Shown here one piece after another: positions 1,647 through 15,903 of a stretch of DNA of 23,983 nt (its first letter is position 1; the number at the start of each line of letters is the position of its first letter). Origin of the DNA: a virus; the IMG/VR virus record IMGVR_UViG_3300013010_000071, positions 1 through 23,983 of that record, one strand, 5' to 3'. A program made the translations under genes and the position numbers. The notes beneath the pieces were generated by a model, which was not told where the DNA came from, made no database searches, and worked only from the letters and a program-made list of their open reading frames with translations.

Positions 1647-1941
1647 GGCTATCCCCCAGCAGCTTCGACGCCAGCGTGCGCCCCTGCTGCAACCTCTCGA
1701 CCAGCTGTGTCCCTTGGAAGACGTTGATGTCTGCCTCGATCTTCGATGGCAGCACCTTTGCCAACAGCGTCAGGTACGCCCTCGGCTCGACCGTCGCCAT
1801 CAGCGTCAGGTACTCGGCACCGCCCACGTTGGCGAAGCTCTCCTCGATTGCCTCCTTGAGCAGGACCGTCGTCTTGTTCTTTGATCCGCGCCGCCTGCCC
1901 TGCCCGGCGTTGGGCGGGATCGTACCCTTCTTTGCAGCCAT
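1624..1941 (-). CDS. Putative terminase small subunit (105 aa)
   Basis: A 105-aa basic-N-terminal protein. The start reads MAAKKGTIPPNAGQGRRRGS followed by KNKTT and a helical segment (LLKEAIEESFANVGG), then EYLTLMATVEPRAYLTLLAKVLP. This resembles the DUF5681-type and 'GRPKGSxNKTT' proteins found just before phage large terminases. The proposed role is recognition of the packaging site and loading of TerL. Support comes from its position two small genes upstream of terL on the same strand and its size. The ribosome-binding site AGAGGAGG sits about 12 bases before ATG 1941. The family assignment is from pattern memory only; a general small DNA-binding protein is the alternative. Confidence 0.6.
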   Translation of the reverse strand: MAAKKGTIPPNAGQGRRRGSKNKTTVLLKEAIEESFANVGGAEYLTLMATVEPRAYLTLLAKVLPSKIEADINVFQGTQLVERLQQGRTLASKLLGDSHDEHRVH

Positions 1942-1959
1942 CAGCAGGCGGCCTCCTCT

Positions 1960-2430
1960 TTACAGTTCTGCCCAGTATGCCGCAATCAGGGCCGCCTCGG
2001 CAACCCCGTCGTCGGCCTTGCGCTTCAGCAGCTGATCGACGCCTGCACCGAACCGGATCTTGGCGGCGTCGATGCTGGCCTGCTTGTCCCGGTTCAGGCC
2101 CATCGCCTTCTTCCAAACGGCAGGCGTGACGTAGTGCACCGGAGCGCCGACGCTGAACACCAAGCTCTCGATGCCGCCCAGCATCCGCCCGAACTGGAAG
2201 CTCGAGCTGACGCCCTGCTTTGGCATCGCGTGCACCGCCTCGATCACAGCGACATCGAACGGCACCAGGCAGTCGCCCCACCACTCGACGACCGCCCGGG
2301 CATCGACCTGCTTCTTGCCGCGCAGCTCAACCACGGGCATCCGCGTGCCCTTGACCAACCGACCGTTCTGCACGATGGCGAGCCCCCCGGTCTGTCCGGG
2401 ATCGACCCCTAGAATACGAATACTGCTCAT
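1960..2430 (-). CDS. RuvC-like Holliday junction resolvase (156 aa)
   Basis: An RNase H-fold junction-resolving nuclease; in phages it trims branched DNA before packaging. The catalytic acidic residues are recognisable: D10 in ILGVDPGQTGG, E64 in VAVIEAVHAMP, and D140/D141 in KADDGVAEAALIA. They lie in the order and spacing of E. coli RuvC (D7, E66, D138, D141). The length of 156 aa is close to the usual 160-175. The start at 2430 has an AAGGGGAT ribosome-binding site. It lies between the primase and the terminase genes on the minus strand, which fits a job linking replication and packaging. Its 5' side is the long non-coding repeat region 2431-2761. Confidence 0.9.
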   Translation of the reverse strand: MSSIRILGVDPGQTGGLAIVQNGRLVKGTRMPVVELRGKKQVDARAVVEWWGDCLVPFDVAVIEAVHAMPKQGVSSSFQFGRMLGGIESLVFSVGAPVHYVTPAVWKKAMGLNRDKQASIDAAKIRFGAGVDQLLKRKADDGVAEAALIAAYWAEL

Positions 2431-2478
2431 GCTATCATCCCCTTGCTCATGTGGTGTGGGCAGAGCTTAACAGCTCCG

Positions 2479-2537
2479 AAGACCTCGGTCGAGATGGAAA
2501 CTCCTCCCCCAGATCGACCGAGGTCTTTGTATTTTTT
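2479..2537 (+). terminator. Intrinsic terminator-like hairpin, plus strand
   Basis: AAGACCTCGGTCGA at 2479-2492 is exactly complementary to 2514-2527, giving a 14-bp stem with a 21-nt loop. It is followed on the plus strand by GTATTTTTT. Genes on both sides are on the minus strand, so in the plus sense it would stop antisense transcription. In the minus sense the same hairpin falls in the leader of the RuvC gene, about 50-100 nt upstream of its start, without a T-run. Confidence 0.6.
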
Positions 2538-2592
2538 GACCCTCGAACTTGATCGATCGGAACACCTGCAAGCCGCCCCAAAGTGGGCCTAA

Positions 2593-2637
2593 GGTGCAAA
2601 CCGTAAGGCCCCCCTTTAGGGGGGCAGCATTTGCACC
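2593..2637. repeat. Nested inverted repeat: GGTGCAAA arms around a GC hairpin
   Basis: GGTGCAAA (2593-2600) and TTTGCACC (2630-2637) form an 8-bp inverted repeat. Inside it, GCCCCCC (2608-2614) pairs with GGGGGGC (2619-2625) around a TTTA loop. No T-run follows on either strand, so a cruciform, protein site or origin hairpin is more likely than a terminator. Confidence 0.75.
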
Positions 2638-2645
2638 TAAATAAC

Positions 2646-2761
2646 GCATTGATTTTATTGCGTTTTCTTGGTGCAGAGGTGCAAAACCTAAACACATGTA
2701 AGCCATTGATTTCATTACCTTTCATTGGAACGAGGTGCATGCACCTCTTGCACCTTGCACC
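2646..2761. repeat. GGTGCA iteron-like array with two degenerate ~45-bp repeats
   Basis: Copies of GGTGCA or its complement begin at 2670, 2678, 2734, 2740, 2749 and 2756; two more lie at 2594 and 2632 in the neighbouring inverted repeat. AGGTGCATGCACCT at 2733-2746 is a perfect 14-bp palindrome, and TTGCACC is tandemly repeated at 2748-2761, right up to the primase stop. The stretches from 2646 and from 2703 are imperfect direct copies, each running from CATTGATTT through an AT-rich part to a GGTGCA site, 57 bp apart. Clustered short sites plus an AT-rich stretch beside an initiation gene is typical of iteron origins. Confidence 0.7.
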
Positions 2762-4843
2762 TCAGATGCTGACCCGGATCAAGACATTCAGCCGCTTCGT
2801 CGGCGACCGATTTTCGTCCCAAGCCAGCGCCACGAAATGGTTCACCGCGCGGGTCTGCGACGCCAGCACCTCGAGCAGTTTCATGCCCCTCCCACGGCTG
2901 CGCAGGATCTTGTCCTTGCCGTCATGGTCCCAGTGCTCGACGCGGTTCTCGCGGAAGAACTGGTCGATGGCGGTCAGGGTCACAAAGTGCTCGCCCTCGC
3001 CCAGCATCGACACCAGAGCGCTTGCCCACGCCACCCGCTGCCCAGCATCAGCCAGCGCCGTGACGCCGTTGACGGCATCCTCGAGCTCCTGCTCTGCGTC
3101 TGCCAGAGGCACCCACTGCAGCGCACCGATGGGCTTGCCGCCGGTCTTCACCGGGTGTGACACGAACTTGTATGTGGTCGCTGGGAGCGTCTGTCCCTCG
3201 CGCTGCTTGGCATGCTCAGTCACGATGAACCGATCGAGGTTTCCGTCGCGCTGCATCTGGAACAGCTTGCGCCGATTGTCCTTGGCGTTCTTGCCGACCC
3301 GGCAGGCGGGTGGCAGGTAGGGGAACAGCGTGAAGCCCTCATCCAGTGCCGAGAAGATCGCGCCGCTGCCCCGCCACGCGTTGCTGTCGCCGCTCAGGGC
3401 ATCTGGTGCCTCTGCCCGATCCTTGGGGGTGTGGTGGATGAACATGATCGCAGCGCCGGTGTGCTGCGCGATGTACTGGAAGCAGCTGATGATCTGATCG
3501 ACGCTGGCCGCGCTGTTCTCTTCCTCGCCGCCCAGCGTGTTGAACGGGTCGAAGATCACCAGCTCGATGTCGTCCTTCTTCACCTTGGCGACGATCTGGT
3601 CGAGCAGCTCGAGGTTGGGGACCATCATTCCCTGATCCTGCGTCAGGAACCGGATGCGCCCGGCGTCCTTGCCCCGCACCCATGACCTGCGCCCACCGAC
3701 CAGACCATTGGCGTGCATGGCTGCCTTGATCCTGCGCTGCAGATCCTCGCCCTTCTCCTCGTTCGCGAAGTACAGGGTCGAGATCGGCTTGTTGGCTGCT
3801 GGCAGGCCCATGACGTCGGTGCGCCCGGTCAGCAGGCAGGCGATCAGCAGCGCAATGTAGCGCGTCTTGCCCACGCCGCTGGGGCCTGCGATGGAGATCA
3901 GGTCACCGGCCGGGATCATGTCGTCGATCAGCCAGTCGATGTCTGGCAGCTGCGCCTGCAGCAGCGCGTTGCCATCGATGGAGACATACTCCCCGTCGTC
4001 GAGGGACGCCATTGGCAGGGCCGCAGGCTTTGGTTTCAGGTAATGCATGACGCTGCCGCCCGTCATGGGTTTGCGACCGCTGGCCAGCACCTCGGACGGG
4101 TCAGCCGCGCAGTCCCACATCTTGATGGCCGCGACCTCAAGCGTGTCGGCGTCGTCGCTGCCATCCCAGCGCCTGCACCACTGGATCCACGCGTCGCGCG
4201 CAGCCTCCTCATGCGGCGTGCCGTGCGCCTCGTAGTGCAGCCCATGCCCGACCGCCAGCCACGCCGCCCTGTCGCTGATCGTGTTCTCCGCAGCCTTGAC
4301 GGTCTCGATCAGGCGCGGCACATCCGATCCACGGACGGCCGCCAGCAGCGCAGCTGCCATGGGGTCGACCTTGACCGCTGCCCGCGTCGGCATCCAACTG
4401 GGCAGATCTGCAGGTGCCTCGTCAATGCTCCACTTGTACTGGCCGTTCTCGAACCGGCTGGGCGGCAGGACCACCACGCCACGGTGCTTGATGTCGACGC
4501 CCTTGTACCCGTTGAACTTGCCCGGGAACCGCTGGCCGCCGTCCTCAAAGTAATGATGCTCGCCGCCGCTCGCGCTGAACACAGACATGGTGTCCGAGAT
4601 CTCGCGGTCCCAGTTGCACTCGTCTTTGTACAGATCGAGGTCCAGAACCACGAGGCGGTTGGCCTCGGGGTTCATCCCGATGTTGTCATTCGGGTGCCGG
4701 TCCCACCAGCTCGCCACCTCTTCGGTCGTCATCCGGGCGTCGAGGTATCCCTTGACCGCCGGGATCTTGGTGCCTGCTCGGCACGGGAAAACCCAGAAGC
4801 CGTCCTCTGCCAGCGCAACCGCTGCATCTCTTAAATCAGACAT
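2762..4843 (-). CDS. Primase-polymerase / RecA-like helicase (693 aa)
   Basis: A replication initiation protein. The N-terminal ~150 residues are a bifunctional primase-polymerase (Prim-Pol) domain: FWVFPCRAGTKIP, the metal-binding LDLDLYK (D68/D70) and SASGGEHHYF. Residues about 160-260 resemble the PriCT linker domain (AWLAVGHGLHYEA, WIQWCRRWDG). From about residue 300 there is a RecA/AAA_25-type ATPase with Walker A GPSGVGKT (320-327), Walker B ELVIFDPFN (D432) and MFIHHTPKD. I chose ATG 4843 because GGAG lies 6 bases before it; an in-frame ATG at 4855 adds MEYY but has no ribosome-binding site. It heads the minus operon, downstream of a sigma70-like promoter at 4985-5014, with the iteron region immediately after its stop. 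The primer-synthesis and unwinding roles follow from the families. Confidence 0.92.
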   Translation of the reverse strand: MSDLRDAAVALAEDGFWVFPCRAGTKIPAVKGYLDARMTTEEVASWWDRHPNDNIGMNPEANRLVVLDLDLYKDECNWDREISDTMSVFSASGGEHHYFEDGGQRFPGKFNGYKGVDIKHRGVVVLPPSRFENGQYKWSIDEAPADLPSWMPTRAAVKVDPMAAALLAAVRGSDVPRLIETVKAAENTISDRAAWLAVGHGLHYEAHGTPHEEAARDAWIQWCRRWDGSDDADTLEVAAIKMWDCAADPSEVLASGRKPMTGGSVMHYLKPKPAALPMASLDDGEYVSIDGNALLQAQLPDIDWLIDDMIPAGDLISIAGPSGVGKTRYIALLIACLLTGRTDVMGLPAANKPISTLYFANEEKGEDLQRRIKAAMHANGLVGGRRSWVRGKDAGRIRFLTQDQGMMVPNLELLDQIVAKVKKDDIELVIFDPFNTLGGEEENSAASVDQIISCFQYIAQHTGAAIMFIHHTPKDRAEAPDALSGDSNAWRGSGAIFSALDEGFTLFPYLPPACRVGKNAKDNRRKLFQMQRDGNLDRFIVTEHAKQREGQTLPATTYKFVSHPVKTGGKPIGALQWVPLADAEQELEDAVNGVTALADAGQRVAWASALVSMLGEGEHFVTLTAIDQFFRENRVEHWDHDGKDKILRSRGRGMKLLEVLASQTRAVNHFVALAWDENRSPTKRLNVLIRVSI

Positions 4844-4876
4844 GTAGTACTCCATCTAGTGTTGACGGAAGGCTAA

Positions 4877-4924
4877 TGCACGAGATATGGTGGCATTGGA
4901 GATACCGCCGGGAGTGCTCGTGCA
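4877..4924. repeat. Inverted repeat in the primase leader
   Basis: TGCACGAG (4877-4884) and CTCGTGCA (4917-4924) are exact complements. Between them GGTGGCA (4889-4895) can pair with TACCGCC (4903-4909), with one mismatch and one G-T pair, around a 7-nt loop. On the minus strand this hairpin lies in the primase mRNA leader, 30-80 nt before the start codon, where it could affect translation. Confidence 0.65.
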
Positions 4925-4941
4925 AGAAACCTCCCTGAATT

Positions 4942-4973
4942 GGCCCCGCCGCTCACCCGGCTGGGCCTTTTTT
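4942..4973 (+). terminator. Intrinsic terminator in the divergent region, plus strand
   Basis: GGCCC (4942-4946) pairs with GGGCC (4963-4967), and inside it GCCG (4948-4951) pairs with CGGC (4958-4961), separated by a C/T mismatch. Six T residues follow (4968-4973). No plus-strand protein gene lies upstream, so it either ends a short antisense RNA or blocks antisense read-through. Its T-run ends just where the minus transcript should begin. Confidence 0.8.
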
Positions 4974-4984
4974 CTTGGACCTCC

Positions 4985-5014
4985 AGCATAGGCGTGGCAC
5001 CATGCTCTGGTCAA
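4985..5014 (-). promoter_or_regulatory. Sigma70-like promoter for primase/terminase operon
   Basis: Read on the minus strand: TTGACC (complement of 5009-5014), an 18-bp spacer, then TATGCT (complement of 4985-4990). The start would fall near 4978, leaving a structured leader of about 135 nt before the primase ATG at 4843. An A/T-tract (about 5020-5033) lies just upstream of its -35 box and also upstream of the divergent plus promoter, so it could act as an UP element for both. Confidence 0.65.
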
Positions 5015-5041
5015 TCCGCGAAAAAATTTTCACGCACCCCC

Positions 5042-5070
5042 TTGTCAGCTGCTGATCAGCATCTTATATA
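5042..5070 (+). promoter_or_regulatory. Early promoter P1 with palindromic operator
   Basis: TTGTCA (5042-5047), a 17-bp spacer and TATATA (5065-5070). The spacer contains the 12-bp perfect palindrome TGCTGATCAGCA (5050-5061). The same ATCAGCATC half sits at the same distance from the -10 box in promoters at 6652 and 12073. It drives the first gene of the plus operon through a short leader carrying ACACCACACGGAG. Confidence 0.75.
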
Positions 5071-5103
5071 TGGTTCATCGAGACACACCACACGGAGCCG
5101 ACC

Positions 5104-5502
5104 ATGACCTTCGACCAGATCCCACTCGCCGCCCGCTTCGAGAGCCGTGGCACCCAGTACGCCCGCATCGATCGCACCGACCGCGAACAGGTTCGCCGCC
5201 ACTCTGCAGCCTTCGGCCTCTTCGACGCCAAGGGCCGCGAGATCGGCCACGCCTACTACATCGACCGCGAGGTCCACGTCATCGACGCCGACAGCTATAC
5301 GCTTGGCGAACTGAGCAGCCTTGACCTGCTGCTTGACGAGAGCTTCATCGTCTATCCGCAGGGCCTGCGCGACGGCGTCAAGTTCGGCGCTCTGCCTACC
5401 GCCAGCTACAAGCGGTTCAAGACGCTGGTCGAGGCAGAGGCCTACGCCGACAAAGTCATCGTCCGCGCCGAGCGCAACGCAGTCAAGAAGGCTTCGGCGT
5501 AA
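5104..5502 (+). CDS. Hypothetical early protein (132 aa)
   Basis: First gene of the early operon, just downstream of promoter P1, with a CGGAG ribosome-binding site. The 132-aa product is mixed acidic and basic, predicted soluble, with no membrane segment or catalytic motif that I recognise. The N-terminal half (MTFDQIPLAARFESRGTQYA, then RIDRTDREQVRRHSAAFGLF) looks like small phage proteins with a beta-rich fold, and the C-terminus is a lysine/alanine-rich helix. First-expressed phage genes often act on host functions, but nothing here shows a target. The codon pattern matches its neighbours and the antisense 273-aa frame is a shadow. Confidence 0.75.
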   Translation: MTFDQIPLAARFESRGTQYARIDRTDREQVRRHSAAFGLFDAKGREIGHAYYIDREVHVIDADSYTLGELSSLDLLLDESFIVYPQGLRDGVKFGALPTASYKRFKTLVEAEAYADKVIVRAERNAVKKASA

Positions 5503-12069: not shown

Positions 12070-12072
12070 CCC

Positions 12073-12101
12073 TTGACCGATGCTGATCAGCATCTTATAT
12101 C
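12073..12101 (+). promoter_or_regulatory. Internal promoter P3 with 16-bp palindromic operator
   Basis: TTGACC (12073-12078), 17-bp spacer, TATATC (12096-12101). The spacer is almost entirely the perfect palindrome GATGCTGATCAGCATC (12079-12094), the fullest version of the motif also found in P1 and in half form in P2. Its leader then carries ACACACCACAGGAG before the gene at 12133. Confidence 0.75.
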
Positions 12102-12132
12102 ATGGGCACACACACCACAGGAGACCTTGACC

Positions 12133-12555
12133 ATGACCCATCCGCACCTGATCGCCACCGCCGCCGACGCCCAGCAGTTTGTTCTGGGCGGTCGCGCACG
12201 CTTCACGCTCGTGTCCAAGCAGACCGGCAAGCGCTACACCTACCGCGTGTCGAAGGCCAAGGACACCGACGACGTGTTCTTTGCCAGCCTGCTGGTCGGC
12301 CAGAACAACGAGCAGGACTACGAGTACCTTGGCTTCACCAAGAACGGCAACGCCCTGATCCCGGGCCGCAAGGGCAACCCCAGCCACCCTGCGTTCCTCG
12401 GGCTGGACTGGGCGCTGCGTCAGTTCTCGGCAGGCAAGATGCCTGAGCAGCTCGAGATCTGGCACGAGGGCCGCTGCGCCCGCTGCGGTCGGACCCTGAC
12501 CGACCCGGCATCCATCGAAGCGGGCTTCGGCCCCGAATGCATCAACCACATCTGA
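12133..12555 (+). CDS. DUF6011-type protein with Cys4-like C-terminal motif (140 aa)
   Basis: The real start is ATG 12133; an in-frame TTG at 12073 would place the coding start inside promoter P3. The C-terminal 30 residues are a compact zinc-ribbon-like motif, GRCARCGRTLTDPASIEAGF then GPEC, matching the DUF6011 pattern CxxCGRxLxxxxS...G.GPxC. The first 110 residues are a beta-rich domain (RFTLVSKQTGKRYTYRV) not known to me. Function unknown. It is the first gene of a short operon with the coiled-coil protein, the DUF5664 protein and the small basic protein, which suggests a role in metabolism or regulation during replication. Confidence 0.85.
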   Translation: MTHPHLIATAADAQQFVLGGRARFTLVSKQTGKRYTYRVSKAKDTDDVFFASLLVGQNNEQDYEYLGFTKNGNALIPGRKGNPSHPAFLGLDWALRQFSAGKMPEQLEIWHEGRCARCGRTLTDPASIEAGFGPECINHI

Positions 12556-15163: not shown

Positions 15164-15903
15164 CAGAATACCTCTCTCTGGTTCGCGACGTAGTGGGCCG
15201 AGACTGTCAGTTCAGCTCCGGGTGTGGCTTTGACGAACAACGCATCTTGGCTCTTCATTACAAATCGCGCTGCCGGAAAGGTGTACCTTGATCCACTTAG
15301 TACGAACAGGTTTTCCACCAGCGTCCTGCTCGTGCGGTCGTCGAAGTTGACGATCTTAATCGAGACGTCTGCGGGGTCGCCATGAAAGGACAGGGCGGTG
15401 AGAATATACCGAACTTCACGCTCAGAAAACACACCGGCAGAGAGTTCATCTGGAACCAAGTACGTCGGAGGCTGCATGATGTAGGTCCACCCACCAAGAA
15501 CCCGAACATCAGTGGACCTGTAAGTACGCTCGAACAGGTTCAGCGGTGGGCGCGGTGATACAATCTCGCGGCGGAACAAGTCCGAACCGAAGAGCGCAGA
15601 CCCCGCCGCGCTCAGATCGCCGTCGGCGTAGACCACTTCCGAGATAGACCCTGCGGCACCTAGCACGTGACCCGCAGCACTCAGGTCGCCGTCGGCGTAG
15701 ATCGTGTTGGTTAATGAAGTCGTACCAGCAAAGGTGTGACCCGCAGCACTCAGGTCGCCGTCGGCGTAGATCGTGTCGGTTGATGAAGTCGTACCAGCAA
15801 AGGTGTGACCCGCCGCGATCAGATCGCCGTCGGCGTAGATGATCGTGGGGTCCGCAGCGGAACCCCCGGTCGGTGCATCAGCAAGCGGTCTGAACCCAAG
15901 CAT
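15163..15903 (-). CDS. Tail protein with four 23-residue tandem repeats (246 aa)
   Basis: The N-terminus MLGFRPLADAPTGG is typical of small tail proteins in alphaproteobacterial phages. Residues about 19-104 are four tandem copies of a 23-residue unit (IYADGDLSAAGHTFAGTTS plus a variable end), encoded by exact 69-bp periods. The C-terminal part (about 110-246) shares a domain with the 139-aa protein at 19489-19908 (PRPPLNLFE; YLVPDE versus YLIPAD; the end YVANQREVF versus FVLNQREQF). It therefore looks like a duplicated tail domain fused to a repeat stalk, perhaps a host-recognition accessory. Molecular role unknown. Confidence 0.8.
   Translation of the reverse strand: MLGFRPLADAPTGGSAADPTIIYADGDLIAAGHTFAGTTSSTDTIYADGDLSAAGHTFAGTTSLTNTIYADGDLSAAGHVLGAAGSISEVVYADGDLSAAGSALFGSDLFRREIVSPRPPLNLFERTYRSTDVRVLGGWTYIMQPPTYLVPDELSAGVFSEREVRYILTALSFHGDPADVSIKIVNFDDRTSRTLVENLFVLSGSRYTFPAARFVMKSQDALFVKATPGAELTVSAHYVANQREVF
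15602..15846. repeat. Four 69-bp tandem repeats inside a tail gene
   Basis: The core CGCCGTCGGCGTAGA begins at 15618, 15687, 15756 and 15825, exactly 69 bp apart. The two middle units are nearly identical, the outer two more diverged. Being in frame (23 codons), they can gain or lose units without breaking the gene. Confidence 0.9.

Follow-up and report, generated by a model that had tools for sequence, protein, structure and literature searches.

The segment at positions 2593-2761 of the viral sequence analysed here is, with a probability that we put at roughly 85%, the replication origin of a marine phage, lying directly 3' of the gene that encodes its initiator. Iterons there would be bound by the C-terminal domain of this protein, IHF would bend the DNA, and a hairpin would serve for priming. 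The sequence, referred to as the window, is a 23,983-bp IMG/VR record; a relative of 38,863 bp contains it at 99.9% identity. The phage encodes a family-A polymerase, a SNF2-type helicase, a RecE-like nuclease, a dCTP deaminase, a RuvC-like resolvase, and a terminase whose identity to its counterparts in Pseudomonas phage HU1 and several Vibrio phages reaches about 50%. In the mechanism that we propose, the C-terminal domain of a Prim-Pol/RepA-type protein would bind GGTGCA iterons, and IHF, or a similar host bending protein, would bind two AT-rich spacers 57 bp apart and compact the array by folding it. The helicase domain would load at AT-rich DNA and unwind it, Prim-Pol would start at the GC hairpin thus exposed, and extension would fall to the family-A polymerase of the phage.

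GGTGCA or its complement TGCACC begins at positions 2593, 2632, 2670, 2678, 2734, 2740, 2749, and 2756. These eight of the window's 30 copies lie within 164 bp, or 0.7% of its length, and the largest GGTGCA cluster in 1000 first-order Markov windows had four copies. The array is the densest hexamer cluster, all other hexamers of the window being less densely clustered, and GGTGCA itself clusters nowhere else in the window. A first-pass annotation of this DNA, which had counted eight copies in about 170 bp and proposed an iteron origin beside an initiation protein, suggested comparing the motif count across the genome and the layout among related phages. Its count is borne out, the copies are denser in the array than elsewhere in the window, and the layout proved strongly conserved in relatives, with a site sequence that varies by lineage; the density of the array and its conserved layout make the iteron origin the best-supported reading.

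The sites form three blocks with two AT-rich spacers between them, so that iterons flank AT-rich DNA, as in the PICI type. Block I (2732-2761, no strand assigned) contains the sites at 2734 on the plus strand and at 2740, 2749, and 2756 on the minus strand, together with the palindrome GAGGTGCATGCACCTC. The final site adjoins the stop codon of the primase gene (2762), just where the earlier annotation had its TTGCACC copies end; the palindrome that it placed at 2733-2746 exists, with a length of 16 rather than 14 bp (2732-2747). Block II (2670-2683, plus strand) consists of the sites at 2670 and 2678. In Block III (2593-2637, no strand assigned), the inverted arms GGTGCAAA (2593-2600) and TTTGCACC (2630-2637) enclose a GC hairpin at 2608-2625, again as first described. 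No DnaA boxes were found near the array, an Rfam scan of positions 1900-5200 gave no match, and a DNA similarity search with the array in phages and plasmids returned nothing meaningful. Cumulative GC skew of contigs of 38.9 and 44.2 kb, which is confounded by gene orientation, shows no clear minimum at the array.

The two spacers are 66% and 75% AT, compared with 39% across the window, and each contains a match to the IHF consensus. The published form of this consensus is WATCARNNNNTTR, often with an A-tract on its left (PMC8421141). We used a stricter form, WATCAANNNNTTR, and the term IHF site denotes a consensus match. Site 1 (AATCAATGGCTTA, 2699-2711, minus strand) lies in the 66% AT spacer and site 2 (AATCAATGCGTTA, 2642-2654, minus strand), 57 bp away, in the 75% AT spacer. 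Perfect matches to the stricter form number exactly two in the window and in the 38.9-kb contig, both within the array, against about 0.2 expected per 38.9 kb. The published form has three matches in the window (0.36 expected), two of them inside the array, and its sole match in the 44-kb contig of relative L009 falls in the array of that contig. The AT-rich stretch of the first annotation and its two degenerate direct repeats, separated by 57 bp, are real and correspond mainly to these two 13-bp matches. A spacing of 56-58 bp recurs in relatives L003-L010, L012-L015, L017, and L153-L158, including a family with the site motif GTGGCAG; the second site is imperfect in L005 and L017, the spacing is 81 bp in L011, and L016 and L159 have one good site each. 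From these matches we infer that IHF may bind at both spacers.

The hairpin of Block III reads GCCCCCC-TAAA-GGGGGGC on the minus strand (GCCCCCC-TTTA-GGGGGGC on the plus strand). In most lineages 29 or 30 nt separate the start of its stem from that of IHF site 2; L012 and L158 have a short stem at a greater distance. The stems vary among lineages (CCCCCC, CCCCTATC, TTCTTTC, TACCCCC, CCCCCGCCT), and the loop is nearly constant (TAC, TAAA, TAAC, or TTC). Compared with Markov shuffles, hairpin conservation over 14 loci gave a combined Fisher p of 2.6e-9, a value that overstates independence because the loci are related; the script chose a neighbouring hairpin in L016, L154, and L156. Since RepB' of RSF1010 recognises such hairpins and primes 3' of them (PMC4234260, PMC4434180), this candidate is most likely a priming site. 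A role as a transcription terminator is less likely, because no T-run follows the hairpin on the coding strand.

The gene that precedes the array (2762-4855, minus strand) encodes a 697-residue fusion of Prim-Pol, PriCT-2, RepA-like helicase, and C-terminal domains, a candidate primase, helicase, and origin initiator. Pfam assigns Prim-Pol to residues 12-154 (PF09250, E = 2e-24) and an AAA_25 helicase to residues 299-480, with a weak match to PriCT_2. Foldseek placed RSF1010 RepA among the closest folds to the helicase, and a profile comparison with the PDB returned RSF1010 RepA (1g8y) as the sole match (E = 7.5e-11). Codons 274-293 form a low-confidence linker in the AlphaFold2 model. The C-terminal domain, which we propose as the iteron reader, comprises residues 584-697 (2765-3106, minus strand); for the last ~115 residues AlphaFold2 models predict a long helix followed by a strand, two helices, and two strands (H-E-H-H-E-E), the order of elements found in winged helices. 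As a fold search against the PDB yielded no significant match to this domain, the winged helix stays a prediction from element order. Sequence searches of Pfam and the PDB with the domain gave no match, and thus no recognised DNA-binding family.

Two scans of IMG/VR recovered about two dozen related loci, a small metagenomic set, and about 20 of them carry an array at the same place. In the closer relatives whose contigs include the 3' end of the gene, the array follows it, the first site being no farther than about 25 bp from the stop codon, if not right at it, as in the window. The common plan consists of direct repeats and a palindrome at the stop codon, an AT-rich spacer, further sites, a second AT-rich spacer, and a final site with the hairpin. 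When 6-mer clustering was ranked along each locus, the array was the top-ranked segment in nearly all, with a tie in L005; the distant L164 was unremarkable. The motif GGTGCA is common to one large group, including members whose C-terminal domains are merely 29-36% identical to that of the window, and other lineages use TGTGCAG (L011), GTGGCAG (L012-L014 and L158), GTTTCCCC (L159), or GTTCC (L016). In the named phages that encode related primases, the DNA 3' of the gene holds either a weaker repeat region (Pseudomonas MR14) or no comparable array (Caulobacter RW, Pseudoalteromonas C7, Rhodoferax P26218, Vibrio 1.005.O, Gordonia Mahdia, BFK20, and KayaCho). Plasmid unnamed3 of Ruegeria sp. SCSIO 43209 (L298, 3757-4150) carries a gene for an AAA-family (RepA-type) primase, with a helicase 27% identical. 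Downstream of this gene come CAATTTAC/GTAAATTG repeats, a single IHF-like site, and a pair of inverted sites that enclose a CCCCC-TAC-GGGGG hairpin.

Looser scans of the collection recovered a few arrays (L199, L224, L076, L067), the matches to tandem AGGTGCA being mostly coding repeats and those to GTGCA with two IHF sites mostly chance matches in AT-rich DNA. In L076 (4262-4462), a different, VirE-like primase/helicase gene is directly followed by an array of AGGTGCAC in both orientations with IHF-like spacers; this protein was not found as a relative, yet the arrangement is alike. An array of TTGTGCAC with two IHF-like sites occurs at 3340-3600 of L199, with no primase gene adjoining on that piece of sequence. 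Two of the related genes are irregular: L007 (3500-3583) has a deletion within the C-terminal region that leaves the array intact, and in L004 (216-224) codon three, counted from the aligned start, is a stop. Either may be an assembly error or real damage.

Comparison of close relatives revealed that the array is exchanged together with part of the initiator gene. In blastn alignments of L012 with the window, similarity breaks at positions 4037 and 2542, delimiting a cassette (2542-4037, minus strand) that contains the helicase half, the C-terminal domain, and the array; L158 and L159 give similar boundaries. Replacement sets in at the linker (codon ~272-280) and extends to a point 219-262 bp beyond the stop codon, a little farther than the hairpins. 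L012 and L003 are 95% identical in DNA to codon about 272, and are unrelated in helicase, C-terminal domain, and array, after which identity returns to 92%, starting 242 bp beyond the L012 stop; their proteins share 92% identity in Prim-Pol, 29% in the helicase, and 20% in the C-terminal domain. L158 and L159, each compared with L005 and L006, break at codon 275-280, and similarity resumes about 240-260 bp after the stop relative to L005, and in a patchy manner and later relative to L006. Between L159 and L005, Prim-Pol is 88%, the helicase 22%, and the C-terminal domain 19% identical, and the motif is GTTTCCCC versus GGTGCA. There are three cases in which a near-identical primase half is joined to a different helicase, C-terminal domain, and array, and the array motif changes while ruvC and the genes beyond it stay alike (84-97% DNA identity). 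The cassettes of L012 and L158 are themselves alike (helicase 95%, C-terminal domain 86%) and are attached to Prim-Pol halves that are 79% identical, which indicates that at least two backgrounds have hosted the cassette. The L012 and L159 cassette proteins are encoded by no phage in the collection.

Because the array is co-replaced with the helicase and C-terminal domain across lineages, the site motif, to judge from sequence comparison, belongs to that half of the protein and not to the Prim-Pol half. The helicase also changes in these large exchanges, so that they do not prove the C-terminal domain alone to be the reader; L011 separates the two in part. Its helicase is 76% identical to that of L153 and its C-terminal domain 27%, and the motif has changed; against GGTGCA relatives in general, the values are 74-76% and 27-31%, again with the new motif. 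This single case points to the C-terminal domain as the probable reader and is not proof. Whether the helicase half, the C-terminal reader, and the origin form a self-contained specificity cassette is in our judgement an evenly balanced question; such a cassette would have fixed boundaries and, swapped between otherwise similar genomes, would change the origin code wholesale on a rigid iteron/IHF/hairpin scaffold. If so, the initiator-origin pairs would exclude one another and together make up a system that diversifies; competition among co-infecting phages, or origin parasites, may be what drives it.

The position and anatomy of the array, its co-replacement with half of the initiator, and the unchanged neighbours from ruvC onward fit an origin that is read by its own initiator. 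It is unlikely, in our view, that the array is instead an operator at which the primase protein or another regulator controls the ruvC-terminase operon, the IHF sites being promoter architecture. Iteron-binding initiators often act as regulators too, and the stretch from the array to ruvC does hold promoter-like elements, together with an inverted repeat that is conserved, in the window and in its close relatives. However, this promoter block is missing from L010, L015, and L153-L156, where ruvC comes shortly after an array that is as rich or richer, and an operator leaves unexplained the conserved hairpin and the exchange with the helicase; nor does GGTGCA cluster anywhere else in the window. 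The conserved hairpin also resembles single-strand initiation sites (PMC4434180, PMC4234260), which would suit a region for single-strand or lagging-strand priming, or a replication enhancer, rather than the main origin; priming alone has no need for iterons, IHF sites, or linkage to the helicase/C-terminal half, and we regard this reading as quite improbable. There is very little to be said for a phage attachment site, in which a core would be flanked by arm-type repeats and IHF sites. The fixed register of short repeats and IHF sites does recall attP of lambda-type phages, but the motif tracks the replication protein, and no relative was found among 84,980 bacterial and archaeal genomes. This reading was rejected on finding no tyrosine integrase (PF00589) in the window and four longer relatives, five records that are possibly fragments, with a search whose control gave a hit in 14 of 14 genomes. 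A packaging (cos/pac) site is just as hard to credit and was likewise rejected: the array does lie between the primase and terminase genes, but its motifs are wholly different where ruvC and the DNA beyond it match at 84-97% identity.

Several further elements adjoin the putative origin or lie elsewhere in the window. The RuvC-like Holliday junction resolvase gene (1960-2430, minus strand; PHROG 1770) is the conserved neighbour downstream of the array, outside the exchanged cassette. Between the two, at 2479-2527, lies the inverted repeat AAGACCTCGGTCGA / TCGACCGAGGTCTT, which is kept in close relatives with both arms changing in step (for example, AACGCCCTCGGTC / GACCGAGGGCGT) and is absent from L010, L015, and L153-L156. 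In several relatives one arm overlaps a promoter-like TTGACC-17-TAAGCT; the repeat may act as an RNA leader or as a pair of operators. The leader of the primase gene contains a second inverted repeat, TGCACGAG / CTCGTGCA (4877-4924), possibly a leader RNA or operator, and many relatives share ACCATATCTCGTG of this leader. Two copies of a promoter-like stretch that contains the palindrome TGCTGATCAGCA, ~77% identical to each other, lie at about 5039-5133 and 12070-12165, one at either end of the early plus-strand gene block; the stretch is a candidate early operator. Tandem repeats (repeated TIYADGDLIAAGHTFAGT) are found at 15602-15840 within a minus-strand gene of the virion region.

For most lytic phages known only from metagenomes, origins are unmapped; here a probable one is placed within about 170 bp by comparison alone. 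The five site codes and their matching proteins make initiator-origin specificity directly testable by domain swaps. The layout also provides a rule for finding origins in phages and plasmids, namely an array next to the stop codon, two IHF sites spaced by 57 bp, and a hairpin after a further 29-30 nt; the primase of the Ruegeria plasmid may already conform to it.

The finding links the replication designs of PICI, pRN1, P4, and RSF1010. According to the cited sections, PICI origins sit 3' of rep (PMC6092414), and the C-terminal domains of SaPI Rep and Cch2 recognise the downstream origin (PMC7581432). The window shares with these elements short repeats around AT-rich DNA directly 3' of an initiator-helicase gene, repeats that differ between elements, and, as proposed here, their reading by a C-terminal domain (PMC6092414, PMC7581432). 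As described in the same sections, SaPI/PICI Reps are DUF927 or D5-type helicases of satellites (PMC7581432), whereas here a RepA/DnaB-like helicase is fused to Prim-Pol in a phage with structural genes and its own polymerase, and with no tyrosine integrase found; those sections do not describe for SaPI/PICI rep-ori the paired IHF sites and TAC/TAAA hairpin seen here. The P4 alpha protein likewise combines primase, helicase, and a C-terminal winged helix (here predicted) that binds origin repeats in one polypeptide, but its primase is of the Toprim type (PMC4234260) and its helicase of another class, in contrast to Prim-Pol and AAA_25/RepA.

ORF904 of pRN1 joins Prim-Pol, a helicase, and a C-terminal winged-helix domain, the last again predicted here, and needs a stem-loop directly 3' of its own gene, the structure of which is conserved and the stem sequence poorly so, much like the hairpin described here (PMC4234260). 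That protein has an SF3 helicase and its origin a single ~100-nt stem-loop and no iterons, whereas here a short hairpin lies inside an iteron array beside a RepA-type helicase gene. RSF1010 (IncQ) has a RepA-type helicase, the closest solved structure, a primase of the archaeo-eukaryotic type, and iterons with stem-loop priming sites (PMC4234260, PMC4434180). Its RepA, RepB', and RepC are three proteins with a separate iteron binder, whereas here all functions would reside in one gene; no separate RepC-like binder was recognised among the window genes scanned. Iterons, AT-rich DNA, and IHF also occur together in pSC101 and R6K, which need DnaA and have no fused helicase (PMC5043065); the array has no DnaA box near it, and the phage supplies its own helicase. 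The putative origin would work like these systems and is a member of none. It differs from PICI by the missing satellite context and D5/DUF927-type helicase, from P4 by the missing Toprim primase, from pRN1 by not being a lone stem-loop free of iterons, and from RSF1010, within the genes scanned, by having no separate iteron binder. Its overall kind is known from PICI, P4, pRN1, and RSF1010, and its RepA-helicase form, paired IHF sites, and cassette exchange look new.
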